Shown: piece after piece, positions 4,076 to 19,682 of the stretch | Position numbering within the stretch: position 1 is the first letter of the stretch | How the letters are laid out: each line of letters opens with the position of its first letter | NCBI GenBank assembly: GCA_015485385.1 | Contig: WFTS01000012.1 | Span: 1-36,298, forward strand | Source: Kordiimonadales bacterium | GTDB taxonomy: Bacteria; Pseudomonadota; Alphaproteobacteria; Sphingomonadales; Kordiimonadaceae | Length of the DNA stretch: 36,298 bases | Reading direction: 5' to 3' | Made by a program: the position numbers and the translations under genes | The notes under the pieces: generated by a model | What the model saw: only the letters and a program-made list of their open reading frames with translations | Databases searched by the model: none | Told to the model about the DNA's origin: nothing

Positions 4076-4717
4076 TCAAGGTGTGACCATCAGGCTGCGC
4101 AAAATAATGCCGCTAACCGTTTCTTTCGCCTCTTCAAACTGTTGATCACTCAGTGGTTCGCCGCCATTCAGTGCAATAATCTGAGCTTCAAAATCCGCAT
4201 AATGCTGGGTTGCGCCCCAGATTAAATAAAAGAAATAGCGCGGGTTAACAGGCGCTAGTTTCCCCTCGGCAATCCAGCGCTCGACAATTTGTTCGCGGCT
4301 CTCTAACCACGGCTTTACCGTATTTGCCAGATATTCCTGAAGGAATGGAGCGCCGCTTGCCATTTCAATCGCCCACAAACGAGAGCCATGAGGCCTTGCG
4401 CGTGCTAGATCCATCTTTGAGGCCACATAGCTTAGGATCGCGGCTTTAGGATCATCTATTTCATCAAAATTATCAGCGGCATGCAGCCATATTTCACACA
4501 CGCCTTCGATCACCCGGTGATACAGATCTTCTTTAGCACCGAAATAATAATAAACATTGGGTTTAGGCACGCCTGCACGCTCTGCAATCAAGCCTACGCT
4601 GGCCCCCTGAAAGCCTTTCTCAGCAAAAACCGTTTCAGCGGCCTTCAGAATTTTGGCTTCATTATCGCGCCGGATACTAGCCTTATGGCCTGTGGCTGTA
4701 GTGCTTTTTTGTGTCAT
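4076..4717 (-). CDS. TetR-family regulator, RutR-like
   Basis: DNA-binding repressor or regulator of 213 residues. The N-terminal helix-turn-helix is at about residues 23-63, with GVPKPNVYYYFGAKEDLY where Escherichia coli RutR has the very similar GVSKTNLLYYFPSKEALY. The ligand domain also follows RutR: SRLWAIEMASGAPFL, GKLAPVNPRY and IWGATQHYADF match RutR SRLFCMEMLAGAPLL, GKLAPIDPQH and IWASTQHYADF (RutR recalled from memory). RutR binds uracil or thymine and controls pyrimidine use. I start at 4717 because residues before that in the frame do not look like the family and no signal supports them. It sits between the MFS gene (convergent) and the TonB receptor (same strand, upstream). RutR-type boxes elsewhere in the window make it the best candidate regulator of the nucleoside genes. 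Orthology to RutR itself is an inference; other YcdC-type TetR proteins sense other ligands. Confidence 0.85.
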   Translation of the reverse strand: MTQKSTTATGHKASIRRDNEAKILKAAETVFAEKGFQGASVGLIAERAGVPKPNVYYYFGAKEDLYHRVIEGVCEIWLHAADNFDEIDDPKAAILSYVASKMDLARARPHGSRLWAIEMASGAPFLQEYLANTVKPWLESREQIVERWIAEGKLAPVNPRYFFYLIWGATQHYADFEAQIIALNGGEPLSDQQFEEAKETVSGIILRSLMVTP

Positions 4718-4851: not shown

Positions 4852-7800
4852 TTAGAATCTGTATTTCAGGCCAACCTGAATGCGCCAAAGTGAATCACCT
4901 TGGTCCACTTGAGGACGCAGAGTATTTTCTGCGCTGAAGTCGTCATAGACATAATTGCTTGAAATCAAAGCATTTGTGACAGGATCACGAACTTCATTCA
5001 GTGTGGCTGAAACCACCGGAATAGCTTCACCAACATCCCCCGGACGGAAGAAGCGGTTAATACCTGTGCCACTACCCAAGAAGTTCAGGAAGTTTTCAAA
5101 ACCGACAGAAAGCTCGAACTTATCATCTCCAAAGAAGCCCGCACGGAATTCCTGTGAGAAGCGCAAATCAATGTCTGCAGCCCATGGCTGTTCGCGAATA
5201 CTACGGTCAAGAATTTCACCAGCATATTCATTCAAGCCTTCAGCCTTAAGGAAATCAAAGAACCCAGCAACATCAAAGCCATCAGCATATGTTACCAAAG
5301 GATCATTTGCACCTGTTGGGATATACAGCAAGCTACGAGCTTCTCTATCAGAATCACCGAAGACATTACGGTCAGTGTTGGCATCAAACACATATGACAA
5401 AGGCCGACCGGACCGAGCCCGGAAGAAGGCCGCGAATGTCGTGTTCAGGTCATCACCAAACATTTCATCACTATAAACAAGCCTTAAAGTGAGGTTATGT
5501 TTATTGTTATTAGGCGATGTACCAAGAGGTGAGCTGTTAAAGTTACGCGTTGCCACTTCCTCGAAGTTAGAGCCGGCAGTTGAACTTCCGCCTGCGTTAC
5601 CAACAACCGAGTCTGTGTAGGCGTAACCCAAGCTCACATCAAAGGTTGCAGAATCGCCAACGGTGAACTGTTTGGCAAACTGTGCAGCCAGTGAGAACTG
5701 ATAACCGCCGCCGTTTACAGCGTTGGTCAACAGAATATTCTGCCCACTACTTGTTGGAGTGCTGTTAAAGCAAGCCGCTGTTGTTCCAGAGAAGCCTTCA
5801 CGAATACCAGCGAACTGAGCGTTACAACCGTCTGCCAAACCAGGATTGCGGAAATTCATCTGTGAGAACAAATGACGACCATCAGGAGCAGTGCCTGACT
5901 GTGTCAGTGACAGATCAACAAAATCGAAACCATTGACGATATCGCCGTAGATAGCATCAACCTTGATGTTCCAGTCATCGAAGAAGTCAGATCCTGTGTT
6001 TTCTGTAAAGTGATTGATACCCAAGCTGAAACGGTTCATTTTCGCCAGTTTCAAATTTGGATCAATAGCAGCCACAGAACCAAGGTTTTGCTGCGCATTT
6101 AATTTAGCAGCATCAATAGCACACTGCGGAATACCAGAGAAGCTACCGCCTGAGAGAACGTTCAGGTCTTCTGGAGCACAAGATCTATGGTCACCAAAAC
6201 CGATGGCACCACCAAAGTTCTGGTACGAGTTAGAGAACCAAACCGTTGGATCACCACCTGTAAAGCTAGCAAATCCACCAGTTAATGTCGTGTTGCCAAA
6301 TTTCTCAGGCATGTTCCATGTAAAGCCGATACGTGGCTGGAAGGCATTCAAGCCATCATAGGACCCTGTATTGCTAAAGCCAAAGCGGCTAACAAATTCA
6401 GGGTTTTCCAGCGGAGCATCCCCTGAAGTGTAGAAATCATAACGCGCACCAAAGACAATTTGCAAATCGTTGCTGACTTGCCATTCGTCTTGAAGATATA
6501 CGGTATTGATTGTGCGAGAAAATTCCGCCGCAGCATCATTTGGATCACCCGTGAAAGATGAATTAATGCGGATACCGCTGGCAATACCAGACTCTAGCGC
6601 ATCAATATCAGCGTCTGCATCACCAAATGTACCAAACTGAACCGTACCAGTGGCGTTAATGATAAACAGATTAAAGACATCTAATTTATCATATTCATAA
6701 CCGAATGTGATCTGGTGATCCCCAGCAGAATAATCGCCTTTAATTTTAAACTGTGTTGTGCTGGTGTCCAATTGGTTGGCTGACCGGAACGTACCCGGAC
6801 CTGATACAAAATCAGTACCAAAGAACTCGTTACCAAACGGAAGGCCAATGCCAATACGCACTCTAGGAGTAGGATCCTGTGCTTCACCACCGCCCAGTGG
6901 GCTTTGGATGTCACCTACGGTATTTTTAGACGCGCGAATTTCGGTTGAGAAATTCTCTGACCAATCTGAGAACAAGCGCGCTGAATATGTATCAGACACA
7001 GACCCTCGAGATTGGAAGTTATCAGAGAAAGTAAAGTTACCACGGCCTGTATTGATATCATCACCTAGAATACGGTCTTCTTCTAAGCGGCTATAGGTAG
7101 CTTCTAAACGGTGGTTGTCATTGATGTTAAAATCAAGACGACCAAAGAAGCGGCGGCTGGTGTTTGGCAGTGTGCGAACAATTTCGCCAGGATCACGGCC
7201 ATACTGGTTTTTCAAAATATCGCGGATGCGGTTCACTTGGTCCAGTGTAAAGACACTAGGGTTTGCAAAACCAGCTTCTGCAGGGCCTTCACTTTGAAGG
7301 TCCGATGTGCTGGTTTCTTCATATGATCCATAGAAGAATAATTTGTCTTTAATGATCGGGCCGCCCAATTCAGCACCCCAGTCATATTGATCAAACTTCG
7401 CGCCACCCGTTACGTCAACACCGTCAATTTTTGACCCCGTTAAACCATCACCATTATAAAGGATAAAGGTAGACCCGTGGAACTCGTTGGATCCTGATTT
7501 GGTAACAACGTTAATGTTACAACCAGTAAATTGACCATATTCAACATCAACAGGTGAGAATTCCACTGCAACCGCATTCACACTATCGAACGGAATAGGG
7601 AAAGTACTGCGTGAAATATTACCTGATGAGTTCAAACCAAATGGATCGTTTGCGCGCACACCATCAATAGTGAAACTATTCACCCGGCTACTACCGCCCA
7701 AACAGTTGATGCCAAAGCCTTCACCACCGCTACCACGGCTGATGTTTACGCGAGGGTCAACCCGGATAATATCGCGAATTTGGCGGCTGATAGATGGAAG

Positions 7801-8250
7801 CGCCGTAATATCACCGAGGTTAAAGGTAGAACTTGGACCCGTTGCTACAGGTGACGAAACAATTGATTTAGCTGAAACAACAATTTCTTCAAAATCACCT
7901 TCCAACGCCTGAAGTTGGATCGGGAAACTTTGCATGGAACCAAGAGCGGCATAAACGCCTGTCACTGTCGATGCATCATATTCATCGCTTGATACGCGAA
8001 TGGTGTATGGACCACCAACCTGCAAGGCACGGACACTGAAATTACCGTTTGCGTTGGTTGTTGTCGTTGTTGAATTCCCTGTACGCGTGTCGGTTACAAG
8101 AACAGTTGCACCCGCAATTGCGCTACCATCTGGCCCTGTGACATTACCACGCACACCGGATGTAATTGCCTGCGAAACGGCTGGTACGCTTGCGGCCATG
8201 GCGGCAAGCGCGACACTGCTACATAAAGCAGTCTTAAAAAGTCGATTCAT
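4852..8250 (-). CDS. TonB-dependent outer-membrane receptor with N-terminal carboxypeptidase-regulatory-like domain
   Basis: Large outer-membrane receptor of 1132 residues. Order of parts: signal peptide (about 1-28, ending VSQA), a carboxypeptidase-regulatory-like beta-sandwich (about 30-115; VRGNVTGPDGSAIAGATV), a TonB-box-like EEIVVSA near 122, a plug with GGSSRVNSFTIDGV and FSPVDVEYGQFTGCNINVVTKSG, then a long beta barrel ending in aromatic GLKYRF. This is the Oar-like class of receptors. Such receptors use TonB energy to import large or scarce substrates; the substrate is not evident. Context suggests nucleic-acid fragments or nucleosides: an S1/P1 nuclease lies upstream and a RutR-like regulator downstream. 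The 518-bp leader carries two perfect TTGAC-N6-GTCAG palindromes. Two Cys in the plug (in NCLGG and GCNIN) might form a disulphide. The function as a receptor is firm, the substrate is inference. Confidence 0.93.
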   Translation of the reverse strand: MNRLFKTALCSSVALAAMAASVPAVSQAITSGVRGNVTGPDGSAIAGATVLVTDTRTGNSTTTTTNANGNFSVRALQVGGPYTIRVSSDEYDASTVTGVYAALGSMQSFPIQLQALEGDFEEIVVSAKSIVSSPVATGPSSTFNLGDITALPSISRQIRDIIRVDPRVNISRGSGGEGFGINCLGGSSRVNSFTIDGVRANDPFGLNSSGNISRSTFPIPFDSVNAVAVEFSPVDVEYGQFTGCNINVVTKSGSNEFHGSTFILYNGDGLTGSKIDGVDVTGGAKFDQYDWGAELGGPIIKDKLFFYGSYEETSTSDLQSEGPAEAGFANPSVFTLDQVNRIRDILKNQYGRDPGEIVRTLPNTSRRFFGRLDFNINDNHRLEATYSRLEEDRILGDDINTGRGNFTFSDNFQSRGSVSDTYSARLFSDWSENFSTEIRASKNTVGDIQSPLGGGEAQDPTPRVRIGIGLPFGNEFFGTDFVSGPGTFRSANQLDTSTTQFKIKGDYSAGDHQITFGYEYDKLDVFNLFIINATGTVQFGTFGDADADIDALESGIASGIRINSSFTGDPNDAAAEFSRTINTVYLQDEWQVSNDLQIVFGARYDFYTSGDAPLENPEFVSRFGFSNTGSYDGLNAFQPRIGFTWNMPEKFGNTTLTGGFASFTGGDPTVWFSNSYQNFGGAIGFGDHRSCAPEDLNVLSGGSFSGIPQCAIDAAKLNAQQNLGSVAAIDPNLKLAKMNRFSLGINHFTENTGSDFFDDWNIKVDAIYGDIVNGFDFVDLSLTQSGTAPDGRHLFSQMNFRNPGLADGCNAQFAGIREGFSGTTAACFNSTPTSSGQNILLTNAVNGGGYQFSLAAQFAKQFTVGDSATFDVSLGYAYTDSVVGNAGGSSTAGSNFEEVATRNFNSSPLGTSPNNNKHNLTLRLVYSDEMFGDDLNTTFAAFFRARSGRPLSYVFDANTDRNVFGDSDREARSLLYIPTGANDPLVTYADGFDVAGFFDFLKAEGLNEYAGEILDRSIREQPWAADIDLRFSQEFRAGFFGDDKFELSVGFENFLNFLGSGTGINRFFRPGDVGEAIPVVSATLNEVRDPVTNALISSNYVYDDFSAENTLRPQVDQGDSLWRIQVGLKYRF

Positions 8251-8442
8251 TCCCTAAGCTCCATTAAGTCCTGACACATGGCGCAATGTCCAAATGTCGT
8301 CCAATTCGGACGTTCGTCCGTCTTTATCCCAAGTCCCCACTCGAGTTTGAAGGCGCGGCTTGCGGCTTTGCCAACTTGTATAGGCAACATCCTCTTGAAT
8401 TGGGAAATATCACTATACTAGTTCTCACACATTTCAAGTTTC

Positions 8443-8456
8443 TGACGAAGGTGTCA
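8443..8456 (-). promoter_or_regulatory. RutR-like operator, TonB receptor leader, site A
   Basis: Perfect TGAC-N6-GTCA palindrome. Read towards the receptor it is TTGACACCTTCGTCAG (8457-8442). The outer TTGAC...GTCA frame is that of the RutR consensus TTGACCANNTGGTCAA; the inner CCA/TGG bases are not kept. About 190 bases from the receptor start. Confidence 0.55.
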
Positions 8457-8500
8457 AGATTGAGAGAAAAGGTTAAAAACCGTTAACTCCTATTAAATCC

Positions 8501-8514
8501 TGACCGTGTTGTAA
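8501..8514 (-). promoter_or_regulatory. Degenerate RutR-like site, TonB receptor leader, site F
   Basis: Read towards the receptor: TTTACAACACGGTCAG, seven of eight bases of TGAC-N6-GTCA, followed by GATT. The same GTCAGGATT follows both sites between bmpA and upp, which is why I list a one-mismatch site. Confidence 0.35.
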
Positions 8515-8532
8515 AAGGCACAGTTCGATAGC

Positions 8533-8546
8533 TGACAGCGTTGTCA
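8533..8546 (-). promoter_or_regulatory. RutR-like operator, TonB receptor leader, site B
   Basis: Perfect TGAC-N6-GTCA palindrome. Read towards the receptor: TTGACAACGCTGTCAG (8547-8532). It lies about 280 bases from the receptor start. It begins with TTGACA, a good sigma-70 -35 hexamer, but no matching -10 is seen 16-18 bases further on. Confidence 0.55.
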
Positions 8547-8768
8547 AGGCTCGTTTGTAAAACTATATATTGTAAAATTTTGCGGCCAACCACCAAGATA
8601 TGCCACGCAGCCAACCGATCAAGGCCAAGTGCATTTTCGATTCGAAATCGCACAAATATTGGAAACGCAAACACGCCACAGCGACGTAGGTCCCAGAAAA
8701 TAAAGGGTAAAAGCCTATAAATACAGTAGAATTTCAACCAAAATCTACACGGTATACGACTGTGGCCC

Positions 8769-9548
8769 TTATTTCTTGAATATAGCGTTCAAATAGCCCG
8801 CGAGGCGAATCCCGCCCTTTGACATCTGGCTTTTGATCAAGGGTGTATGTTTATAAACATAATCCCATTTCAAAATGCCCGTGCTGTTGGCGTATATATC
8901 GCCCCGATAGCTGATCAATTCCTCAACCCAATCAACCGGTGTCGCCTTTTGCCACTCGGTAATCTGTGCAGGTTTGATCTTACGGTCCAAAAAGTTGGTC
9001 CATTCAGTGTAGGAAAGCCGCTTATGCTGGATCAAATGCTCGTCCCATACCCGGTGAAGGTTTGTTATTTGCTCAAACCAGACAACATCAATGCGGTTGC
9101 CGCCTTGATCTTCTGCATGGCCCGCATGCAAAGGCTGGTGCAAGTCCCCGATGATATGAATGATATAGCGCAGAGCAAGCGCCTTATCTTGCTTGCTGGC
9201 TGCTGGGTCCTTCAGGGTTGCCGAAAAACTGGCAAGGGCTGTCACAGCGTCCCCTGCCGGGTTCTTTTCGCTGTCTTTATAGCTTACACCGTCAGGCACA
9301 TTAACATAATGATACGGCGCGGCGGTCCGGCCAAAATATGGGTCTGGGCTTGCGCGCATTTCATCGGGCCATGTGGCGGCCTCAGCCATGAAATCATCCC
9401 CCAGAAGCGCCTCAACCGCTGCCAGCGCCTCGGGCGTCATATGGCGAAACGCCAGTTCAGCCACAACACGGTGCCCTGTGGGGCCAAAAGCAAATGCGCT
9501 TGTTGACACTGCCAAAAGAAGCGCCAACGCGCCCAGTATAATCCGCAT
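8769..9548 (-). CDS. Exported S1/P1-family nuclease
   Basis: Predicted zinc-dependent, single-strand-preferring nuclease and 3'-nucleotidase acting in the periplasm or outside the cell; 259 residues with a signal peptide likely cut after Ala20 (SAFA|FGPTGH). The family's metal ligands are visible in order: GHR (mature His6), TWPDE, PYHYVN, HIIGDLHQPLHAGHAEDQGGN and NLHRVWDEH. In the family the mature N-terminus is normally Trp1, whose amine and carbonyl hold zinc; here it would be Phe1, with His6 kept in register. The gene lies 38 bases downstream of deoB in the same direction, so it appears to be the last gene of the nucleoside uptake operon, which supports a role in feeding on extracellular RNA or DNA. 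A 518-bp gap without a clear terminator follows. Confidence 0.9.
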   Translation of the reverse strand: MRIILGALALLLAVSTSAFAFGPTGHRVVAELAFRHMTPEALAAVEALLGDDFMAEAATWPDEMRASPDPYFGRTAAPYHYVNVPDGVSYKDSEKNPAGDAVTALASFSATLKDPAASKQDKALALRYIIHIIGDLHQPLHAGHAEDQGGNRIDVVWFEQITNLHRVWDEHLIQHKRLSYTEWTNFLDRKIKPAQITEWQKATPVDWVEELISYRGDIYANSTGILKWDYVYKHTPLIKSQMSKGGIRLAGYLNAIFKK

Positions 9549-9586: not shown

Positions 9587-10804
9587 TTAAAGAGCGCTTT
9601 CACCATATTCTAAAGGTGCAATCCCCAAATGGTTCGCCACCGTTTGTCCAATATCAGCAAAGCTTTTGCGCGCGCCAGCACTGCCTGGCTTTAAGTTTGG
9701 GCCATACGCCACAAAAGGGATATATTCCCGAGTATGGTCAGAACCGGGCCACGTTGGATCACAGCCGTGATCCGCGGTTAGGATAACAATATCATCCGCG
9801 CGCATCCCCTTTAAAAAGTCCGGCAGCAGTTTATCAAAATATTCCAGCGCTGATGCATAACCCGCCACATTGCGCCGATGCCCAAATGACTGGTCAAAAT
9901 CAACAAAATTCACGAAGGTCAGCGACCCATCAGCCGCGCTTTCCTGCATCGACATTGAGGCAGCAAACAGCCCATCAAGTCCGTACGCCTTGATCTTTTT
10001 GGTCAGGCCTTTATGGGCAAATATATCCGCGATTTTGCCGACCGAAATCACCTCACGCCCCGCAGCTTCAAGCTTTTCCAACAAAGTGGGCTTGGGCGGC
10101 GGCGTCGCCAAATCACGGCGATTGGTCGTGCGCTCAAAAACACCGTTTTCACCCACAAATGGCCGCGCGATCACTCGTCCGATTTCATATCTGTCGACCA
10201 GCTCGCGCGCCACCGCGCAAACTTCATACAGCCGTTCAAGCCCGAAATGCTTTTCGTGCGCCGCAATCTGAAACACACTGTCGCTTGAGGTATAAACAAT
10301 CGGCTTGCCGGTGGCGATATGCTCGTCCCCGAGTTCCTCAAGGATCACAGTACCAGAAGCCGCTTTGTTGCCAAGCACACCCGGCAGATCACAGCGTTTG
10401 CACAAGGCGTCCAGCAGTTCAGGGGGGAAACTTGGATAGTCGGGCGGGAAATATCCCCAGTCAAACATCACTGGAACACCGGCCATTTCCCAGTGACCAG
10501 AGGGAGTATCCTTGCCAGCCGACATTTCTGCACAAGCCGCATAAAGCCCTGTTGCATCGCCTTCAATCTCTAACCCTTTTGGGACAGACCCTGTGGCAAT
10601 CTCTGCCGCGAGGCCTAACCCCAAGCGTGCCATGTTTGGCAAAGATAAAGGCCCAGCCTTCGGGCGATCATCCCCGGTATTGCCGTCAGCACACCAGCGA
10701 GCGATATGGCCAAAGGTATCAGCGCCAACATCGCCAAATTTTTCAGCGTCCGGCGCTGCCCCGATGCCAAAACTGTCTAGGACCAGAATATATGCGCGTG
10801 CCAT
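9587..10804 (-). CDS. deoB: Phosphopentomutase
   Basis: Interconverts (deoxy)ribose 1-phosphate and 5-phosphate, linking nucleoside phosphorolysis to central metabolism; cytoplasmic, Mn-dependent. The 405-residue protein has the alkaline-phosphatase-fold signs of Deo[14 protein letters not shown] at the N-terminus, [30 protein letters not shown], and the C-terminal metal site [23 protein letters not shown]. The length is usual. It starts four bases after the deoA stop, consistent with one transcript. It receives the sugar phosphates released by DeoA here and PunA on the divergent unit. No deoC (deoxyribose-phosphate aldolase) is in the window, so the next step is encoded elsewhere or absent. 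Confidence 0.96.
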
Positions 10805-10808
10805 CCGT

Positions 10809-12152
10809 CTATCCCTTGATAATTTCTGCTGTTACCGGCGCAAGCTTAGGGGCCTCGCGTCCAATAGTGACCGCCCCTTGCACCGCAGCCACCGCCGCAT
10901 CGGCCGCTTCATCAGATGCAGCATACACCATTGCAAGCGGTTGGTCTTCCTCTAGGCTGTCACCAATTTGGCATAGTCCCGTAAAGCCAACACGGTGATC
11001 AATATCTTGCGACGGATCGGTGCGGCCCCCGCCGAGCGCCACCACCGCCATGCCAATATCACGGGTTTCCATCGCCTGCACATAACCCCGCGCCTCAGCT
11101 AGGATAGGCTTCACCACCGGAGCAAAGTCCAAATAATTTTGGTGCTTCTCCATGAAGTCTGTTGGCCCACCTTGGGCCGCAACCATTTTCCCAAAAATTT
11201 CTGCTGCTCGGCCCGATGTCAGGGCAGTCTCGGCGGCGGAGCGCGCTGCCTCCACATCAGCCTGCGCCCCCGAAAGCGCCAGCATATGCGCGGCCAAATC
11301 AAGTGTCACATCCAAAAGACGAGGGTCAGCGGCCTTGGGGTGTGTTAAAAAAACAATCGTTTCCAGTACTTCGACCGCGTTGCCCGCTGTGCGCCCTAGC
11401 ACTTGGTTCATATCTGTCAGCAAGGCCGTTGTTGGAGTGCCCGCAGCGGAGGCAACCCGCACGATATTTTCTGCCAATGTGCGCGCTTTATCTTGGCTGT
11501 TCATAAATGCGCCATTGCCGAATTTCACGTCCATCACCAAAGCGTTCAGCCCGGCAGCTAATTTCTTAGACAGAATAGAGGCGGTGATAAGCGGAACGCT
11601 TTCAACGGTGGCGGTTACATCTCGGATGCCGTAAAAGCGTTTGTCTGCGGGGGCAAGGTCGCCAGTTTGGCCAATGATAGAACAGCCAATGGTTTTAACG
11701 ATCTCGGCGAACCTATCAATGCTTGGGTATGGATCATAGCCCGGAATAGCCTCAAATTTATCGAGCGTGCCGCCAGTATGGCCCAAACCGCGCCCTGAAA
11801 TCATCGGCACCAAACCACCACAAGCCGCCACAATCGGCGCCAACATCAGGCTTACTTTATCGCCCACACCACCGGTGGAATGTTTGTCGGTAATAGGGGC
11901 GTCGGCCTCTAAGCCGTACTTGACCCAATTGATAACATCACCACTGTCGCGCATGGCCAGCGTTAAAGCGGCGCCCTCAGCCGGGGTCATACCGCGAAAA
12001 AAAACCGCCATCGCAAAAGCCGAAAGCTGCGCGTCAGTCACACCGCCGTTCGTTATACCGTCCACAAATAGCTGGATATCCTTATCCGAGACAATGCCGC
12101 CCTCGCGTTTGGTGCGGATCACTTCCTGCGGAAGGAAAACAGATGTACTCAT
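10809..12152 (-). CDS. deoA: Thymidine phosphorylase
   Basis: Splits thymidine or deoxyuridine with phosphate into base and 2-deoxyribose 1-phosphate. The 447-residue length fits the gammaproteobacterial-type DeoA. Signs: [22 protein letters not shown] at the start, the phosphate-binding [13 protein letters not shown] (about residues 84-96), [22 protein letters not shown], and [21 protein letters not shown]. Its product uracil or thymine is the ligand type of RutR, and uracil is the substrate of Upp encoded on the facing unit. It starts three bases after the cdd stop. Confidence 0.96.
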
Positions 12153-12155
12153 ACT

Positions 12156-12578
12156 TTAACTCCGGATTCTGTCGACATTTTCAGGACCAAAGCTAAAAGG
12201 CAGCAGGTCTGCGCTATTGGTCTCAAGAAGAATATTCCCCCGTTGATCACATATGGTGATGGGGATACCTGTTCGGCCACTAAATTCACGCAGTTTTTGG
12301 CGGCACCCTCCACACGGCGTACATAGATGCTCGCCCGGCCCTACCACGACCAGATGTTTCACCCTACTGCCCCCAGAGAGCACCATATTGCCGATCGCCG
12401 TTGCCTCGGCACATTGTCCAAGTGGATAGGCTGCATTTTCAATATTACAGCCAGCATATATTGCGTCGTCGTTCGCCAAAAGTGCCGCCCCGACCGGATG
12501 GTTTGAATAAGGCGCATAGGCTTTTTCAAGCGCAGCGACCGCAGCCGCAATAAGTTCTGCGCGATGATCAGTCATCAT
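12156..12578 (-). CDS. cdd: Cytidine deaminase
   Basis: Deaminates cytidine and deoxycytidine to uridine and deoxyuridine, feeding DeoA and Upp. A short, tetrameric-type enzyme of 140 residues. The zinc site is complete: CAEATAI for the first Cys and catalytic Glu, and PCGGCRQ for the two other Cys ligands. Two ATG codons are adjacent (12578 and 12575); AGGAG at 12583-12587 sits 4 and 7 bases before them, so the second is at least as likely. It follows the second permease gene by 20 bases. Confidence 0.96.
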   Translation of the reverse strand: MMTDHRAELIAAAVAALEKAYAPYSNHPVGAALLANDDAIYAGCNIENAAYPLGQCAEATAIGNMVLSGGSRVKHLVVVGPGEHLCTPCGGCRQKLREFSGRTGIPITICDQRGNILLETNSADLLPFSFGPENVDRIRS

Positions 12579-12598: not shown

Positions 12599-13573
12599 TT
12601 AATGGTCTTTTTCATAGGGGATACCGCTGGCGCGCGGGGCCTGAATTTTCCCGACAAAGCCCGCCAAAATGATCACCGTCAACACATAAGGCAGCATGAT
12701 CGTAAACTGCACAGGGATTTCGCCAATAAGAGGCAGCGAAACGCCCTGCAAACGGCCTTGAAGCGCATCAACAAAGCCGAACAGCAGGCACGCAAGCAAT
12801 GTCGGCACCGGTTTCCATTTCCCAAAGATCATCGCTGCCAGCGCAAGGAAGCCCTTCCCCGCCGACATATCACGGATAAACCCAGCCCCAAGCCCGGTTG
12901 ATAGAACTGTCCCCGCCAGCCCGCACAGTATGCCTGCAATTATAATCGCTTGATACCTAAGAGCAGCCACAGAAATACCTGCCGTATCAACGGCCTCAGG
13001 GTTCTCACCCACCGCGCGAAGCCGAAGCCCAAAACGCGTTTTGTAAAGCATCCATGCCACCGCCGGCACCAAAAATACCGTCATATAAGTGATCAAATTA
13101 TGACCGGAAATAATCTCGCTATAGAGCGCACCCAAAACCGGCACATCCTTTAAGGTATCTGCAAACGGCAAGCTTATCGCGCTAAACCGGCTTTCGTCGG
13201 TCAACAGGGGTGTCTGCCCTCCGCGCTGGAACCAAAAGTTCGCAAGCGTTGGGGCCAGCCCCGCCACCGCAATATTGATCGCCATGCCCGATACAATTTG
13301 GTTGCCGCGCTGGCTGATAGACACATAGCCGTGCAACAGCGAAAGCGCCACAGAGGCCCCAATGCCCGCAGCCAAACCCGGCCACGGGGACCCTGTTACC
13401 GCAGCCGCCGCAGCCGCCGCAAAGGCCGCAGCCAGCATCTTGCCTTCCAAGCCAATATCCACCACGCCGCCGCGTTCAGCCACAAGGCCAGCCAGCGCCG
13501 CCAAGATTAAGGGCGTTGCAATGCGTAAGGTCGAATCTGCTAACAGTGTCAGATCAGCGAGAAACTCCATCAT
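12599..13573 (-). CDS. Nucleoside ABC transporter permease (second)
   Basis: Integral inner-membrane permease of 324 residues in the BPD_transp_2 family, as in the NupQ/YufQ subunits of BMP-type nucleoside importers. About eight to ten hydrophobic segments are visible, with AERGGVVDIGLEGKMLAAAFAAA and the family loop LRAVGENPEAVDTAGISV that contacts the ATPase. Its start overlaps the stop of the first permease as ATGA (13570-13573), indicating translational coupling. ATG is doubled (13573 and 13570). Confidence 0.92.
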   Translation of the reverse strand: MMEFLADLTLLADSTLRIATPLILAALAGLVAERGGVVDIGLEGKMLAAAFAAAAAAAVTGSPWPGLAAGIGASVALSLLHGYVSISQRGNQIVSGMAINIAVAGLAPTLANFWFQRGGQTPLLTDESRFSAISLPFADTLKDVPVLGALYSEIISGHNLITYMTVFLVPAVAWMLYKTRFGLRLRAVGENPEAVDTAGISVAALRYQAIIIAGILCGLAGTVLSTGLGAGFIRDMSAGKGFLALAAMIFGKWKPVPTLLACLLFGFVDALQGRLQGVSLPLIGEIPVQFTIMLPYVLTVIILAGFVGKIQAPRASGIPYEKDH

Positions 13574-14694
13574 TTGGTCTCTCCTTCACCAACAGCGTTT
13601 CGCCGCGAAAGCGCAAAAATTTTGGCAAGCATCCCCTTAAACAAATAGGGCATAGCCCCTGCGAACAGAATAACCAACCCCTGCACCATGACGATCACAT
13701 CATTGGTAATGGTTGAGATTTCAAACCCGATTTCAGAGCCGCCCTGATACAAAGCACCGAACAACAGCGACGCGATAACAATACCAATGGGGTGATTGCG
13801 CCCCATAAAAGCAACCGCAATACCAACAAAGCCGTAGCCTTGTGTGAAGCCGCCCACCAAACGGTGTTGATCCCCTAAAAGCTCGTTCAAGCCCATAAGT
13901 CCGGCCAATGCGCCCGAGATCATCATCGCCATAATGGTCATTTTCGAAACACTGATACCGCCAAATCGTGCAGCCTCTGGATTTTGTCCCACCACGCGCA
14001 ATTCATAGCCAAATCGTGTGCGCCACAATAAAAACCAAACACCGACCGCGCATACTAGCGCGATCAAAAGCGAAACATTCATCGGGCCTTCTTCAAAGTT
14101 AATCCCAATTCCTGCCAGAAGTTCGTGAATACCCATCAAGCTCGCCGCCTCGGGGAAATCAGCGCTTTCAGGCATCTGCCCGCCGGGACGCTGTAATGGC
14201 CCCACAAGAAAATAGGCTAAAAGTGCAGAGGCGATAAAATTAAACATGATGGTGGTGATAACAATGTGGCTGCCTCGCTTGGCTTGCAAATACGCCGGGA
14301 TATAGGCCCATGCGGCCCCAAACAAGGCCGAGCCAACAATAGCCGCCAGAACCGATACCACGGGCGAGAAATCGCCGACTAAAAAGACAGCAAATGTCAG
14401 CCCTAGCCCGCCTATCATGGCCTGCCCTTCACCGCCAATATTAAAGTGCCCAGCATGAAATGCCAGCGACACGGCAAGGCCGGTGAAGATAAAATTAGTG
14501 GCATAATAAAAAGTATAGCTAATCCCTTCCTCGAACCCAAATGCGCCTTCGATCAAAAGCGATAACACCTCAATTGGGCTTTCCCCCATCGCCAAAACCA
14601 CGAGGCCTGAGACAACAAAGGCTGCACATAAATTTAGGATCGGCAAAAGAATACCATCCGCCCACCAAGGCATTTTCTGCGCCGTAAAAGCCAT
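13570..14694 (-). CDS. Nucleoside ABC transporter permease (first)
   Basis: Integral inner-membrane permease of 374 residues, NupP/YufP-like partner of the following permease. Seen: several hydrophobic helices, FHAGHFNIGGEGQAMIGGLG, and the ATPase-contact loop LRVVGQNPEAARFGGISVSK, nearly the same as in its partner, as expected for a heterodimer. The start overlaps the ATPase stop by one base (TGATG at 14692-14696). Confidence 0.92.
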   Translation of the reverse strand: MAFTAQKMPWWADGILLPILNLCAAFVVSGLVVLAMGESPIEVLSLLIEGAFGFEEGISYTFYYATNFIFTGLAVSLAFHAGHFNIGGEGQAMIGGLGLTFAVFLVGDFSPVVSVLAAIVGSALFGAAWAYIPAYLQAKRGSHIVITTIMFNFIASALLAYFLVGPLQRPGGQMPESADFPEAASLMGIHELLAGIGINFEEGPMNVSLLIALVCAVGVWFLLWRTRFGYELRVVGQNPEAARFGGISVSKMTIMAMMISGALAGLMGLNELLGDQHRLVGGFTQGYGFVGIAVAFMGRNHPIGIVIASLLFGALYQGGSEIGFEISTITNDVIVMVQGLVILFAGAMPYLFKGMLAKIFALSRRNAVGEGETK

Positions 14695-16307
14695 CAGCTT
14701 GCCTCCTGTGAAGATGCGGGCAAGGTGCTTGCGCCGTCGTTTGAAGATGTGGGTATGGCGCTTACGCTGTCGTTGCTTTGGCGCTGCCCTGCCATCATCA
14801 GACCAAGCGTTTTCTCATCCGCCTCCTCTGTTGGCATGGTGCCAATAATTTCGCCCTCGCACATCACCGCGATCCGGTCAGAGATCGCCAGCAATTCATC
14901 CAAATCAGCCGAGACAACCAGTAACGCCTTTCCTGCGTTTCTAAGTTCCGTGATTTGATCATGAATTTTGGTCACCGCCCCAATATCCACGCCGCGTGTG
15001 GGTTGGCCGATCACCAGCAATTGTGGCGACCGCGCAATTTCCCGTGCGATCACAATCTTCTGCTGGTTCCCTCCCGAAAAGGAGCCAATATTTAAACCCG
15101 GATTGCGCGGCCGCACGTCTTGACTTTCAAAATAGTCTTCGGCGCGGTCTGCTATATCCTTGAGTTTCAACACGCCGTGTGCCGAAAAGTCCGGTTCACG
15201 TTGATATCCAAGAATAATATTTTCGCGCGCCGACATGGTCTCAACCACGCCTGTTTTCAGCCTGTCTTCTGCCACATGGGCCATGCCCATGCGCCGGAGC
15301 GCTATTGGGTCTTGCATATGGCTTGGACTGTTGGTCGTTTCACCTGCGAAACGTATTTCGCCGTCACTGATCTGTCTCAGCCCTGTGACAACTTCCAAAA
15401 GCTCGGTCTGACCATTGCCTGCGACGCCTGCAATCCCCAGAACTTCGCCGTCCCGAACCTCAAACGACACCGCCTTCAGCGCCTTCTGTCCTTGGCTATT
15501 AAAGCAGCTAACACCTGATAGAATAAGCCTTTCAGCATCATCGGCATGTTTTTCGCGCGCCACTTCGCGCACCACTACGCTGCCAACCATCAGTTCAGCC
15601 AATTCAGCAGACGATGTTTGTGCCGTAACACGCCGCGCCACCAGCTTACCTGCGCGGATAACGGTTACATCATCTGTCACAGCCATAATTTCATGCAATT
15701 TATGGGTTACGAACAAGATAGTTTTACCTTGCTCTTTCAATAGCTTAACCAAAGCAAACAACTGTTCGCACTCTTGCGGAGTTAAAACCGCTGTCGGTTC
15801 GTCCAATATTAATATTTCAGCACCTTTATAAAGGGCTTTCAAAATTTCCGCGCGTTGACGGACCCCAACAGCCAGATGTTCGACCGGCTCATCAAGCGGT
15901 AGATCGAAGCCAAATTTTTCTTCCAGTTCCACCAAAGCTGCGCGGGCTTTAGCCTTGGCTTGGTCGAGGTTATGGCTACCTTCTGCGCCTAAGATGATAT
16001 TCTCAAGCACCGTGAAGGGTTCCACCAACATGAAATGCTGATGCACCATACCAACCCCGCGCGCCATAGCATCCGCAGGGTTGACGAACGAAACATGCTC
16101 GCCATTTACCAAAATATCACCAGAATTTGGCGCATAAAAGCCAAACAGCATTTTTAACAGTGTGGACTTGCCCGCACCATTTTCGCCGACAATGCCGTGT
16201 ACAGTACCGGCCTTGACCCGCAGACTAATTTGGTCATTGGCCCGCACGTCACCAAAGCGTTTGCTTAGGTCTCTTGTTTCAATAGCTAGGCTGGTCTTCC
16301 CGGTCAT
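14694..16307 (-). CDS. Nucleoside ABC transporter ATPase with two nucleotide-binding domains
   Basis: Cytoplasmic energy subunit of 537 residues, a fused double ATPase like NupO/YufO. First domain: Walker A GENGAGKST at residues 41-49, a degenerate signature LAVGVRQRAEIL, and Walker B ILILDEPTAVLTP. Second domain: degenerate Walker A GVAGNGQTELLE and a good signature SGGNQQKIVIARE, the usual pattern in sugar- and nucleoside-type double ATPases. The Ser/Asn-rich tail after about residue 510 (NDSVSAIPTSSNDGAST) is low complexity. It follows bmpA by 28 bases. Confidence 0.94.
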   Translation of the reverse strand: MTGKTSLAIETRDLSKRFGDVRANDQISLRVKAGTVHGIVGENGAGKSTLLKMLFGFYAPNSGDILVNGEHVSFVNPADAMARGVGMVHQHFMLVEPFTVLENIILGAEGSHNLDQAKAKARAALVELEEKFGFDLPLDEPVEHLAVGVRQRAEILKALYKGAEILILDEPTAVLTPQECEQLFALVKLLKEQGKTILFVTHKLHEIMAVTDDVTVIRAGKLVARRVTAQTSSAELAELMVGSVVVREVAREKHADDAERLILSGVSCFNSQGQKALKAVSFEVRDGEVLGIAGVAGNGQTELLEVVTGLRQISDGEIRFAGETTNSPSHMQDPIALRRMGMAHVAEDRLKTGVVETMSARENIILGYQREPDFSAHGVLKLKDIADRAEDYFESQDVRPRNPGLNIGSFSGGNQQKIVIAREIARSPQLLVIGQPTRGVDIGAVTKIHDQITELRNAGKALLVVSADLDELLAISDRIAVMCEGEIIGTMPTEEADEKTLGLMMAGQRQSNDSVSAIPTSSNDGASTLPASSQEAS

Positions 16308-16335: not shown

Positions 16336-17337
16336 CTAATGGCCAGCGTTACTGCCTTTGATATCACCGACAATAATTTCGCCACTGATAATTTTCGCTC
16401 GCGCGGCCTCAAGCTTGGCCTTCATGGCATCGTCGATCAGGCCTGCATTATGGTCGTCCATTGCATAATCAACGCCGCCGTCCTTGAGTGTCATCACGCG
16501 GTGCCCAGGCTTCCAAGTGCCGTCTTTTGCCTCTTGCATTGCTTGCAGTACGGCAAGATCCACACGCTTGAGCATGCTGGTTAAAACATAGCCCGGCGCC
16601 ACATGGTTTTGGTTGCTATCCACGCCGATCGCAAGCTTGCCGTTATCCTTTGCTGCCTGAATGACACCAAGCCCCGAAGGCCCAGCAGCCGAGAAAATAA
16701 TATCGACTCCGCGTGCATATTGTGATCGCGCCATTTCAGAGGCTTTGATTGGATCATTCCATGCCGTGGGCGTTGTTCCGACGTAATTTTCCACAAATTC
16801 CAAATTGTCGCGTACATACATCGCGCCTTGCCGGTATCCAGCCTCGAACCGGCGAATCAGAGGAATATCCATGCCGCCAATAAATCCAAGCTTATCAGAT
16901 TTGCTTTTCATAGCGGCGATCATGCCGACCAAAAATGAGCCTTCATTTTCTTTAAAGGTAATCGACTGAACATTGGGTAGATCCACAATCGCATCAATGA
17001 CAGTAAAGCGCATATTCGGGTATTTTCTAGCCACATTGCGCACCGCAACAGAATATCCAACCCCGACAGCCACGATTAAATCAGCCTTGCGGCGAGCGAA
17101 GCGCTTTAGGGCTTGCTCGTACTGGGTTTCGCTTGAGGGTTCAAAGTCACGGTACGGTATCCCATATTTGGCCTTAAAGGCTTCGGCACCATTTCGCGCG
17201 GCTTCGTTAAAGCTTTTATCGAATTTTCCGCCGATATCATACAATAATACAGGCTTAAAATCCGCAGCCAATACTGCGCTTGTCACCAGTAAACTGGCCA
17301 GCATAGTGCCAGCAATTGCCTTCAATAATTTCGTCAT
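16336..17337 (-). CDS. BMP-family periplasmic nucleoside-binding protein
   Basis: Substrate-binding subunit of the importer, related to PnrA/BmpA/Med proteins that bind purine and pyrimidine nucleosides. 333 residues from the ATG at 17337, which has GGGGAG at 17347-17352 and begins a clear cleaved signal peptide (ending VLAAD). There is no lipobox Cys, so a soluble periplasmic protein is expected rather than the lipoprotein of Gram-positives. Family segments: VLLYDIGGKFDKSFNEAA, SITFKENEGSFLVGMIAAM and GYRQGAMYV. It is the first gene of the eight-gene minus-strand run down to the nuclease. The promoter region shared with upp holds two RutR-like palindromes about 105-140 bases upstream. A 29-residue longer frame from 17424 spoils the signal peptide and is not used. 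Confidence 0.93.
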   Translation of the reverse strand: MTKLLKAIAGTMLASLLVTSAVLAADFKPVLLYDIGGKFDKSFNEAARNGAEAFKAKYGIPYRDFEPSSETQYEQALKRFARRKADLIVAVGVGYSVAVRNVARKYPNMRFTVIDAIVDLPNVQSITFKENEGSFLVGMIAAMKSKSDKLGFIGGMDIPLIRRFEAGYRQGAMYVRDNLEFVENYVGTTPTAWNDPIKASEMARSQYARGVDIIFSAAGPSGLGVIQAAKDNGKLAIGVDSNQNHVAPGYVLTSMLKRVDLAVLQAMQEAKDGTWKPGHRVMTLKDGGVDYAMDDHNAGLIDDAMKAKLEAARAKIISGEIIVGDIKGSNAGH

Positions 17338-17440
17338 GCACCTACACTCCCCGATGCTATAAAATCCGTTGCAGCCTTTATGCCCCGTTTCTACAGTCCT
17401 GCGCAAGGGAACCAGAGCAAACATGCTGCGTCAACCATTT

Positions 17441-17456
17441 TTGACTATTTGGTCAG
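17441..17456. promoter_or_regulatory. RutR-like operator between bmpA and upp, site C
   Basis: TTGACTATTTGGTCAG agrees with the RutR consensus TTGACCANNTGGTCAA at 12 of its 14 defined positions, the best match in the window. It lies 104 bases from the bmpA start and 91 bases before the upp start, in the middle of the divergent promoter region. Confidence 0.7.
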
Positions 17457-17462
17457 GATTAG

Positions 17463-17478
17463 TTGACCCGACTGTCAG
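17463..17478. promoter_or_regulatory. RutR-like operator between bmpA and upp, site D
   Basis: TTGACCCGACTGTCAG agrees with the RutR consensus at 10 of 14 defined positions and keeps the perfect TGAC-N6-GTCA frame. It starts 22 bases after site C, about two helical turns, and both sites are followed by GATT. A possible upp promoter (TCGACA 17486-17491, 17 bases, TACTAA 17509-17514) lies just downstream. Confidence 0.65.
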
Positions 17479-17546
17479 GATTCAATCGACATTTGCTAAA
17501 ATTCAAATTACTAAGAAACTAGTTAGGGTTCCACAGGGATAGAAAA

Positions 17547-18197
17547 ATGACCTCTAAAGCCGCTGCCAAAGTCACAGTCGTTGACCACCCACTGGTGCAA
17601 CATAAATTAACGCTGCTCCGCCGCAAAGAAGCCAGCACGGCTGAATTCAGAAAATTGCTGCGCGAAATTGGGCTTTTCCTTGGATATGAGGCGCTACGCG
17701 ACCTCCCTATCGGCAAAATTCAAATTGAAACGCCGGTTTGTGCGATGGAGGCTCCGGTGCTTGCTGGCAAGAAACTGACATTCATTTCCGTGCTGCGCGC
17801 AGGAGATGGCCTCTTGGGCCCCATGCTTGATCTGGTGCCGTCGGCGCGGGTTGGCCAAATTGGCTTGGCACGCAACGAAGAAACCCTTCAGCCTGAAAAA
17901 TATTTCTTCAAAGTCCCTAAAGATACCGCCTCAAGGGTGAATATTGTTTTGGACCCAATGCTCGCCACCGGCCATTCAGCCATCCGAGCTGTGCAAGAAA
18001 TGAAAGATATTGGTGCAAAGGACGTTCGTTTTGTTTGCCTCCTTGCGGCCCCTGAGGGTATTAAGGAATTTACCGAGGCACATCCTGATGTGCCAGTTGT
18101 CACGGCGTCTATCGACGAAAGGCTGAACGAGAAAGCCTATATCGTACCGGGGCTGGGGGATGCGGGTGACCGTATATTTGGAACAAAAGGGGTTTAA
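17547..18197 (+). CDS. upp: Uracil phosphoribosyltransferase
   Basis: Makes UMP from uracil and PRPP in pyrimidine salvage; cytoplasmic. The 216-residue protein has family segments [27 protein letters not shown], the PRPP-binding [13 protein letters not shown] (about residues 133-145) and the C-terminal [13 protein letters not shown] that recognises uracil. A GGG/AGGGATAG stretch precedes the ATG. It is the first gene of the plus-strand salvage unit and shares its promoter region with the nucleoside importer operon. Confidence 0.97.
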
Positions 18198-18202
18198 GAC
18201 GC

Positions 18203-18757
18203 ATGACTGTAACCAAAAAATATGTAACCGCACAGGAACTGCTGGATGACAGCTTTCAGCTTGGTCTTCAGATTTTAAAAAGCGATTTCCGCCCGAAATT
18301 TATCGTCGGCGTTTGGCGTGGGGGCACCCCAACAGGGATCGCTGTTCAAGAAATCCTTGATTATTACGGTGTTGATACCGACCATATTGCCATTCGCACC
18401 TCTAGCTACATTGGCATGCAGCAACAAAAAGAGGTCAAAGTTCACGGGTTTGAATATATTGTGAATAATATCAACCATGATGATTCGCTTCTGATTGTGG
18501 ATGATGTGTTCGATAGTGGCCGCTCTATTGATGCGATCATCCAGCATTTGAACGAAAAGTGCCGCCGCAATACACCCGAGACAATCAAAATTGCCACGGT
18601 TTTCTATAAACCGTCGCGCAATGTCACAGATCTAGAGCCTGATTTCTACTGCCATGAAACCGATGATTGGCTTGTGTTCCCGCACGAGTTATCGGACATG
18701 ACACGAGAAGAAATTCTGGAGAAAAAAGGCCTAAGCTTGCCTGAGATCAAAATTTAA
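18203..18757 (+). CDS. Purine-type phosphoribosyltransferase (hypoxanthine/xanthine class)
   Basis: Type I phosphoribosyltransferase of 184 residues, likely converting hypoxanthine, xanthine or guanine with PRPP to the nucleotide. The PRPP loop is LLIVDDVFDSGRSI and the PPi loop region is GVWRGGTPTGIAV. The C-terminal YCHETDDWLVFPHEL resembles the base-binding hood of Gpt/Hpt-like enzymes. It starts five bases after the upp stop and precedes punA, whose products (hypoxanthine, guanine) it could use. I cannot tell which base it prefers, so no symbol is given. Confidence 0.85.
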   Translation: MTVTKKYVTAQELLDDSFQLGLQILKSDFRPKFIVGVWRGGTPTGIAVQEILDYYGVDTDHIAIRTSSYIGMQQQKEVKVHGFEYIVNNINHDDSLLIVDDVFDSGRSIDAIIQHLNEKCRRNTPETIKIATVFYKPSRNVTDLEPDFYCHETDDWLVFPHELSDMTREEILEKKGLSLPEIKI

Positions 18758-18860: not shown

Positions 18861-19682
18861 ATGAGCTATGATGACGTTCAAGCCTGCGCACAGCTGATCA
18901 AAGATAAATTTGACGGAACCATCCCAAAAATGGCGATGGTTTTGGGTAGCGGACTGAATGATCTGGCTGACAGCGTTGAAGATGCCACTGTCTTTTCATA
19001 CGCAGACCTGCCCGGTTTTCCAAAACCAACGGTTGCAGGGCACGCCGGGCGTATGCTGATCGGCAAACTTGCTGGCAGCCCTGTGATCTGTATGCAAGGC
19101 CGCGCGCACGCCTATGAAGGCCACCCGCCATCAACGCTGGCCTTTTCAACCCGTGTCCTTTGGGCGCTGGGAGTGGAAATTTTGGTCCTAACCAACGCAG
19201 CAGGCAGCCTTGACGAAAAAGCTGGCCCCGGCAGCCTTATGGCAATCACTGACCATATTAATTTCTCCGGCATTAACCCGCTGGTGGGCTTAAACGACGA
19301 GCGCTTTGGCCCTCGTTTTCCCGACGTGACAGCCGCGTGGGATAAGGCGCTAACCAAGACACTGGAAGGCTGTGCGGCTGATCTGGATATTGAGCTACAC
19401 CACGGCACATACTTGATGGCATTGGGGCCAAACTTTGAAACTCCGGCTGAAATCCGGGCGTTCCGGTCGTGGGGCGTGAATGCGGTCGGCATGTCAACGG
19501 TGCCTGAATGTCTGGTTGCGCGGCACTGCGGTATGCGCGTGTGCGGTATCAGCTCAATCACAAATTATGCGGCGGGAATGACCGGTGAGGAGCTCACCCA
19601 CCATGAAACCATGGAATATGGGGCTATCGCTGCCGTGAACCTTGATAAATTGCTGCGCGCTTTCGCTTCTAAAGTAGCGTAA
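18861..19682 (+). CDS. punA: Purine nucleoside phosphorylase, trimeric type
   Basis: Phosphorolysis of inosine, guanosine and their deoxy forms to base and (deoxy)ribose 1-phosphate. The 273-residue enzyme belongs to the PunA/XapA (trimeric PNP-I) class: phosphate site VLGSGLND, FPKPTVAGHAGRM, MQGRAHAYEG, TNAAGSL, ALGPNFETPAEIRAFRSWG, VGMSTVPE and SITNYAAG with the base-binding Asn. The sugar phosphate would go to DeoB, encoded on the facing operon. The ribosome site is weak (AAAGAAAGCC). The gene ends the salvage unit with an intrinsic terminator. Confidence 0.95.
   Translation: MSYDDVQACAQLIKDKFDGTIPKMAMVLGSGLNDLADSVEDATVFSYADLPGFPKPTVAGHAGRMLIGKLAGSPVICMQGRAHAYEGHPPSTLAFSTRVLWALGVEILVLTNAAGSLDEKAGPGSLMAITDHINFSGINPLVGLNDERFGPRFPDVTAAWDKALTKTLEGCAADLDIELHHGTYLMALGPNFETPAEIRAFRSWGVNAVGMSTVPECLVARHCGMRVCGISSITNYAAGMTGEELTHHETMEYGAIAAVNLDKLLRAFASKVA

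Follow-up and report, generated by a model that had tools for sequence, protein, structure and literature searches.

The window, that is, the whole stretch of 36,298 nucleotides analysed here, is contig 12 of a Kordiimonas-group genome (2.97 Mb, 167 contigs, 93% complete). It contains a same-strand run of import and catabolism genes, all on the minus strand, beginning with bmpA (16336-17337), which encodes a BMP/PnrA-like substrate-binding protein. This is followed by genes for the ABC importer ATPase (14694-16307), two ABC importer permeases (12599-14694, assigned by position and sequence), cytidine deaminase (cdd, 12156-12578) and thymidine phosphorylase (deoA, 10809-12152), then by a gene of the Pfam metalloenzyme family which we take to be deoB, encoding phosphopentomutase (9587-10804), and finally by what is presumably an S1/P1-type nuclease gene (8769-9548). 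Divergent from bmpA, on the plus strand, are upp, encoding uracil phosphoribosyltransferase (17547-18197), a second gene after upp, encoding a phosphoribosyltransferase that is nearest to the hypoxanthine type and below the cut-off for it (18203-18757), and a nucleoside phosphorylase gene of the PNP_UDP_1 family (18861-19682). Also on the minus strand is a gene for a TonB-dependent receptor (4852-8250), to which the NCBIfam TonB receptor families match weakly, below cut-off. It lies directly upstream of the gene for a RutR-like TetR-family regulator (4076-4717), at a gap of about 134 bp, and the two probably form one operon.

The gene order is kept in the 15 loci of the genus that were retrieved as long stretches. 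The order is regulator, TonB receptor, S1/P1-type nuclease, deoB, deoA, cdd, two permeases, ATPase and bmpA, and on the bmpA side there follow the divergent upp, phosphoribosyltransferase and nucleoside phosphorylase genes. One of these loci (L100) stops inside bmpA. The nuclease was not found in L092, and in four loci (L088, L089, L094 and L100) about 1.4 kb separates it from the TonB receptor gene.

The gap between bmpA and upp contains two palindromes, neither assigned to a strand: operator 1, TTGACTATTTGGTCAG (17441-17456), a candidate RutR-type operator between the divergent promoters, and operator 2, TTGACCCGACTGTCAG (17463-17478), a weaker copy. Operator 2 derives from a tandem duplication of 22 bp (units 17441-17462 and 17463-17484, TTGACTATTTGGTCAGGATTAG / TTGACCCGACTGTCAGGATTCA) 5' of the upp -35 element, and the two sites are spaced 22 bp from start to start. 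The E. coli RutR consensus is TTGACCANNTGGTCAA. Compared by eye with this consensus, operator 1 agrees at 12 of the 14 specified positions and operator 2 at 10, its centre being weaker. Both the pair of palindromes and the count of 12 for the first had been given in a preliminary description of this DNA, and both were recovered here. The same description took the sites to be tandem operators, which stands for operator 1 and not for the pair: a palindrome of the operator 1 form is present in the bmpA/upp gap of 19/19 genomes of the genus, while operator 2 is absent from the gaps of the other 18, so that the window alone has two. A conserved tandem pair was therefore ruled out. In the aligned gaps the block reads GGTCAACCATTTTTGAC-nnnn-tGGTCAaGATT-nn-gTCGACA, with arms that are almost fixed and a centre that varies. 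The preliminary description had proposed conservation where the divergent gene pair is kept as a check, and beyond the genus a site is present in three of five more distant relatives keeping the pair (scores 20.3, 14.5 and 12.5 on the matrix described below). Two relatives (G042 and G052) keep both the pair and a RutR homologue (44% and 40%, respectively), and a matrix scan found no site there. Operator 1, with genes for nucleoside uptake on one side and the gene for uracil salvage on the other, is very probably bound by a repressor that senses uracil.

Candidate promoter elements flank the operator. For upp, a -35 candidate, TCGACA (17486-17491, plus strand), is present in all 20 aligned intergenic regions (the 19 genomes of the genus and G019), and a -10 candidate, TACTAA (17509-17514, plus strand), lies 17 bp from it; at this position 16 of the 20 regions have a hexamer starting TAT. 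The operator at upp is 7 bp upstream of the -35 element and does not cover it. For bmpA, TTGACG (17429-17434, minus strand; TTGACC in most relatives) is a putative -35 element, and no -10 element was recognized in the aligned intergenic regions. Read as its reverse complement, GGTCAA may be a mirror-image -35 element for bmpA, and the operator of the relatives would then lie approximately midway between two -35 elements. An 18 bp element, GCGCAAGGGAACCAGAGC (17401-17418), upstream of bmpA is near-invariant in the genus, and its spacing from the operator block does not change; it is altered in L096 and L060, and by one or two bases in a few other loci, and was not found in G019. It is neither a RutR site nor a recognizable -10 element, and is perhaps part of the bmpA promoter or a site for another factor. 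A known riboswitch was rejected for this region, as a scan of the whole window gave no Rfam match at the gathering score.

A further palindrome pair, overlooked in the preliminary description, lies upstream of the TonB-receptor gene. On the minus strand, TTGACACCTTCGTCAG (8442-8457, score 14.1) is the counterpart of a distal site conserved in the relatives, and TTGACAACGCTGTCAG (8532-8547, score 8.8) is weaker; between them is a degenerate site, TTTACAACACGGTCAG followed by GATT (8500-8515, minus strand, score 8.4). The window's own sites at this promoter are weak, and it lacks the strong proximal site that most relatives have. At least one site is present at the TonB-receptor/regulator promoter in 16/16 genomes of the genus in the set, which comprises 16 of the 19 because contig breaks place G006, G008 and G015 outside it; G008 nevertheless shows a site (L182). 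Outside the genus, G020 and G027, which belong to another genus and have the regulator and no bmpA match, keep TTGACCATTTGGTCAG and TTGACCGTTTGGTCAG at this promoter. The pattern expression found no site there in G019 and G024; on the matrix, G019 has a degenerate site scoring 14.8. Separately, the sequence up to the start codon of the TonB-receptor gene (8248-8262, GGAGCTTAGGGAATG) is strongly conserved in the genus, perhaps beyond the plain needs of a ribosome-binding site.

A weight matrix was trained only on 31 TonB-promoter sites of relatives and then applied to other promoters. Operators 1 and 2 score 19.8 and 13.2, a sequence fitting the E. coli RutR consensus scores 23.5, and the DNA upstream of bmpA/upp scores 16.3-22.8 in 19/19 genomes of the genus. 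The matrix also recognizes an operator upstream of deoC in 19/19 genomes (scores 13.8-23.5) and upstream of preT, and with it of the dihydropyrimidine dehydrogenase operon, in 10/10 genomes that have the gene (scores 16.7-22.4); a PreT-like gene is present in 10 of the 19. The preT/preA genes, taken together as dihydropyrimidine dehydrogenase, are followed by an omega-aminotransferase gene. PreA (well above), deoC, thymidine kinase, dihydropyrimidinase and the aminotransferase match their families above cut-off. The labels PreT and pydC are our own, PreT matching related families only, below cut-off, and pydC matching N-carbamoylputrescine amidase below cut-off. At preT, inspection by eye shows that the operator's left arm could double as a -35 element, and a hexamer resembling a -10 element follows after 17 or 18 bp in 10/10 loci; the operator overlaps -35 and spacer, so that a bound repressor would block polymerase. 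The upstream DNA of pydC served as the negative set. The pattern expression found no site in 9/9 pydC loci, and scores were at most 0.2 in the eight that could be scored, the ninth lacking upstream DNA; control of pydC by an operator of its own was therefore rejected.

Pattern searches first pointed to deoC and preT as targets. Because orthologues of both were afterwards collected by protein similarity, the counts do test the motif; a few loci (e.g. G002) had already been seen by pattern before this. The preliminary description had named bmpA and upp as targets. These stand, but the regulon appears wider, extending to deoC, dihydropyrimidine dehydrogenase and the TonB receptor and regulator genes. 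In the genome to which the window belongs, contigs C53 and C121 both end near the same deoC operator, which fits an assembly break with overlap; the two matches are probably one site and were counted once. A match on contig C137, TGACTATATAGTCA, was discarded as a real operator, since it sits past the 3' end of the dihydropyrimidinase gene.

Two other palindromes deserve mention. One like TTGACCTTTTTGTCAA lies upstream of an adenosine-deaminase-like gene in 6/6 relatives (L127-L131 and L138), and in five of them it overlaps the early, 5' portion of the adjacent thymidine-kinase frame. The corresponding stretch of the window's genome lacks this palindrome, which may be an operator or mere conserved coding sequence. 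In two relatives, palindromes of the same form (L139, 6063-6078; L140, 5256-5271) lie between a presumed sfsA-like gene and a divergent TonB-receptor-like gene, possibly a further target.

Within the window, the core TGACN6GTCA occurs five times against 0.27 expected, and none of 100 shuffles reaches five; four of the five cores are at two promoters, two at bmpA/upp and two upstream of the TonB-receptor gene. Across the whole genome, TTGACN6GTCAG is hardly enriched (10 matches against nine for the reversed control), with four of the 10 matches in the window, which is about 1.2% of the genome. TTGACN6GTCAA gives six matches against seven for the reversed control in this genome, and 200 against 145 over the 19 genomes of the genus, being the higher in 13. 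The signal thus resides in where the sites are and not in how many there are. In three block shuffles of 479 kb, which permute two-base blocks, a total of 14 positions score at least 13.5. Because the presence of sites had guided the choice of some loci in the background scan, the fair yardstick there is the shuffled rate alone.

The regulator gene (4076-4717) encodes the only PF08362 protein found in this genome at its 93% completeness. Its domains, TetR_N (58.7 bits) and TetR_C_3 (PF08362, 150.9 bits), are both above their cut-offs. The match to the RutR family TIGR03613 (E 3.6e-54, 183.7 bits) is below the equivalog cut-off of 368, and that to NF011584 (163.7 bits) is below the cut-off of 230. 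The protein aligns without gaps to residues 1-208 of E. coli RutR (3loc), and has all five residues, W77, Y97, W167, Q171 and Q179, given as uracil contacts of the E. coli protein in PMC10891134. Among 30 homologues four of these are invariant and Y97 is nearly so. The RutR-like TetR gene announced in the preliminary description is therefore borne out by its PF08362 domain and full uracil pocket, with the equivalog cut-off missed.

The link between RutR and bmpA was followed beyond the genus. A survey of 289 genomes of the class, the Alphaproteobacteria, identified 66, including the present one, with bmpA at E 1e-60 or better; the 600 bp upstream of bmpA was scanned in those 29 of the 65 others with returned loci. 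A site scoring at least 12 precedes bmpA in 8/16 genomes with a RutR homologue versus 0/13 without (Fisher p 0.003). This threshold was chosen after the scores were known; a rank test, which needs none, gives p 0.00016, and counting by genus gives 5/11 versus 0/10 (p 0.023). Two of the eight sites, TTGACCAAATGGTCAA and TTGACCAATTGGTCAA, are perfect, and half of the genomes with RutR (8/16) have no strong site at bmpA. The link to a RutR-type regulator proposed in the preliminary description thus finds support in these 29 genomes of the class. In G079 the RutR homologue is directly upstream of bmpA, and before both genes are two palindromes 22 bp apart, the spacing seen in the window, plus a third (L306, 1340-1406); because the regulator gene intervenes, this genome was entered as having no site.

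In Leeia oryzae (Betaproteobacteria) a RutR homologue is located beside upp, a bmp importer, cdd, deoB and deoA. A sequence one step off a palindrome, CTGACCATTTGGACAG, begins 37 bp before the upp start (score 13.5), the best match of the locus (19.9) is at or inside deoA, and the matrix scan found no strong site directly before bmpA. The support from this locus therefore comes from gene neighbourhood more than from sites. In a tree, the Leeia protein, on a long branch, groups with Burkholderiaceae proteins, apart from the Kordiimonas proteins, which speaks against recent transfer between them. With loci assigned to groups by their record titles, 45/49 alphaproteobacterial RutR loci have a site of this form in the 300 bp preceding the rutR homologue, against 0/14 Burkholderiaceae and 0/11 Pseudomonas loci. 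In many Rhodobacterales and relatives (among L183-L259), another, diverged gene of the RutR family is found close to the first, and paired operators with a spacing of about 33 bp precede rutR.

On this evidence, we consider it highly likely that operator 1 is bound by the 4076-4717 protein, acting as a repressor which is released by uracil or thymine and which puts the import and phosphorolysis of nucleosides, the salvage of uracil and the breakdown of pyrimidines under joint control. A dimer of the RutR-like protein would bind palindromes of the TTGACnnnnnnGTCAA type. With one operator between the divergent promoters, a single dimer could shut both upp and the bmpA operon, the latter comprising the importer, cdd, deoA, deoB and nuclease genes. 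In the window, operator 2 would offer a second, weaker dimer a place two helical turns away, an arrangement so far confined to this genome, and this could tighten repression. We predict that the protein also binds upstream of deoC, of the dihydropyrimidine dehydrogenase operon and of its own TonB-receptor operon. Imported nucleosides would be phosphorolysed by DeoA, and the uracil or thymine released would fill the pocket of the regulator and free the operators. Import and phosphorolysis would then rise together with the breakdown of deoxyribose phosphate and the salvage and degradation of uracil, and the regulator's own gene would also be raised, through the TonB operon.

The palindromes may instead belong to another, unlinked regulator, with the RutR-like gene a bystander. 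As a simple palindrome, TTGAC-N6-GTCAA could serve other factors, and a protein search gave seven TetR-family matches in the genome, the RutR-like regulator included. Against this, the targets are pyrimidine and nucleoside genes, as expected of RutR, sites also precede the regulator's own operon, and the site at bmpA tracks the presence of a RutR homologue; moreover, the motif fits the E. coli consensus and such sites accompany nearly all the alphaproteobacterial rutR loci (45/49). A bystander role is accordingly improbable. Function as an operator might also be denied altogether, the matches being chance palindromes or -35-like elements, given that TTGAC is also the -35 consensus, that operator 2 is not conserved and that the bare pattern is not enriched across the genome. 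This was dropped as extremely improbable, in view of the enrichment in the window (5 versus 0.27) and the matrix scores relative to shuffled background; in addition, arms are conserved around a variable centre in 19/19 genomes, and promoters kept out of the matrix training have much higher scores than the negative set.

The mode of action and the ligand could each differ from those proposed. The position of the operator off the core promoter, 7 bp upstream of the upp -35 element, leaves room for activation, and the regulator might mainly activate bmpA and upp, recruiting RNA polymerase from a position upstream of both -35 elements until ligand ends the activation, in a sparing mode. The operator at preT is, by contrast, in a repressor position, TetR-family members usually repress, and a repressor released by inducer suits catabolic genes better; a mainly activating role is thus unlikely. 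To about the same low degree it is conceivable that the ligand is a compound other than uracil or thymine, such as an intermediate of the pathway or the substrate that the TonB receptor imports. The regulator does miss the cut-off of the RutR equivalog, and the gene closest to its own encodes a TonB receptor, but 5/5 uracil-contact residues are kept and dihydropyrimidine dehydrogenase is among the targets.

E. coli RutR is a uracil- and thymine-sensing TetR-family repressor of the rut operon and a regulator of carAB. The Kordiimonas regulator resembles it in the PF08362 fold, the gap-free alignment and the five uracil contacts, and its putative operators are, at the sequence level, 16 bp palindromes of the same consensus. 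It differs in scoring 184 bits against the equivalog cut-off of 368, in the position of its gene after a TonB receptor gene, and in its predicted targets, which are nucleoside import, the deo genes, upp and the reductive pyrimidine pathway. RutA had no match in 19/19 genomes of the genus, in a search whose control was positive in E. coli, and the candidate target in place of the rut operon is the reductive pathway of PreT/PreA. Co-regulation of nucleoside import and phosphorolysis recalls enterobacterial CytR and DeoR, which are LacI- and DeoR-family regulators of deo and nucleoside-transport genes responding to nucleoside or deoxyribose-phosphate signals; the Kordiimonas regulator is, in contrast, of the TetR family and a proposed nucleobase sensor.

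Other alphaproteobacterial RutR regulons comprise pyrimidine-catabolism clusters with hydantoinase, PreT and PreA, and RutR is also compiled in RegPrecise. They share with Kordiimonas the operator, there often in tandem before rutR, and the proximity of dihydropyrimidine dehydrogenase genes. The Kordiimonas protein falls among other alphaproteobacterial RutR proteins in the tree, with Thalassospira nearby at weak support. Unlike theirs, its gene is outside any pyrimidine-catabolism cluster, and its sites add bmpA/upp, deoC and the TonB receptor. PMC5343134 presents RutR as a regulator of pyrimidine catabolism, in a table row reading '68 (13)', which we take to mean 68 genomes or regulators divided among 13 groups, and defers the gene lists to RegPrecise. 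Among titles and the opening portions of abstracts, we found no description of RutR control of BMP-type nucleoside import, upp, deoC or a TonB receptor; RegPrecise gene lists lay outside this search, and part of the Kordiimonas regulon may already be catalogued there. The type of regulator and the operator are known, and what is probably new is the enlargement of a RutR regulon to nucleoside import.

There is perhaps an even chance that in Kordiimonas this RutR-type repressor is the master switch of a full route for scavenging nucleic-acid pieces, which begins with a dedicated outer-membrane TonB receptor and an S1/P1-type nuclease that is exported, and leads by way of the BMP importer and phosphorolysis to uracil salvage and reductive breakdown, replacing control of the CytR/DeoR type, and that RutR-governed BMP import arose or persisted in other Alphaproteobacteria, and perhaps in a betaproteobacterium. 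The locus offers a testable, uracil-responsive regulon for marine bacteria able to feed on nucleosides. It links a BMP-type importer, and possibly a TonB receptor too, to pyrimidine sensing, and shows how the RutR regulon may have grown past pyrimidine catabolism.
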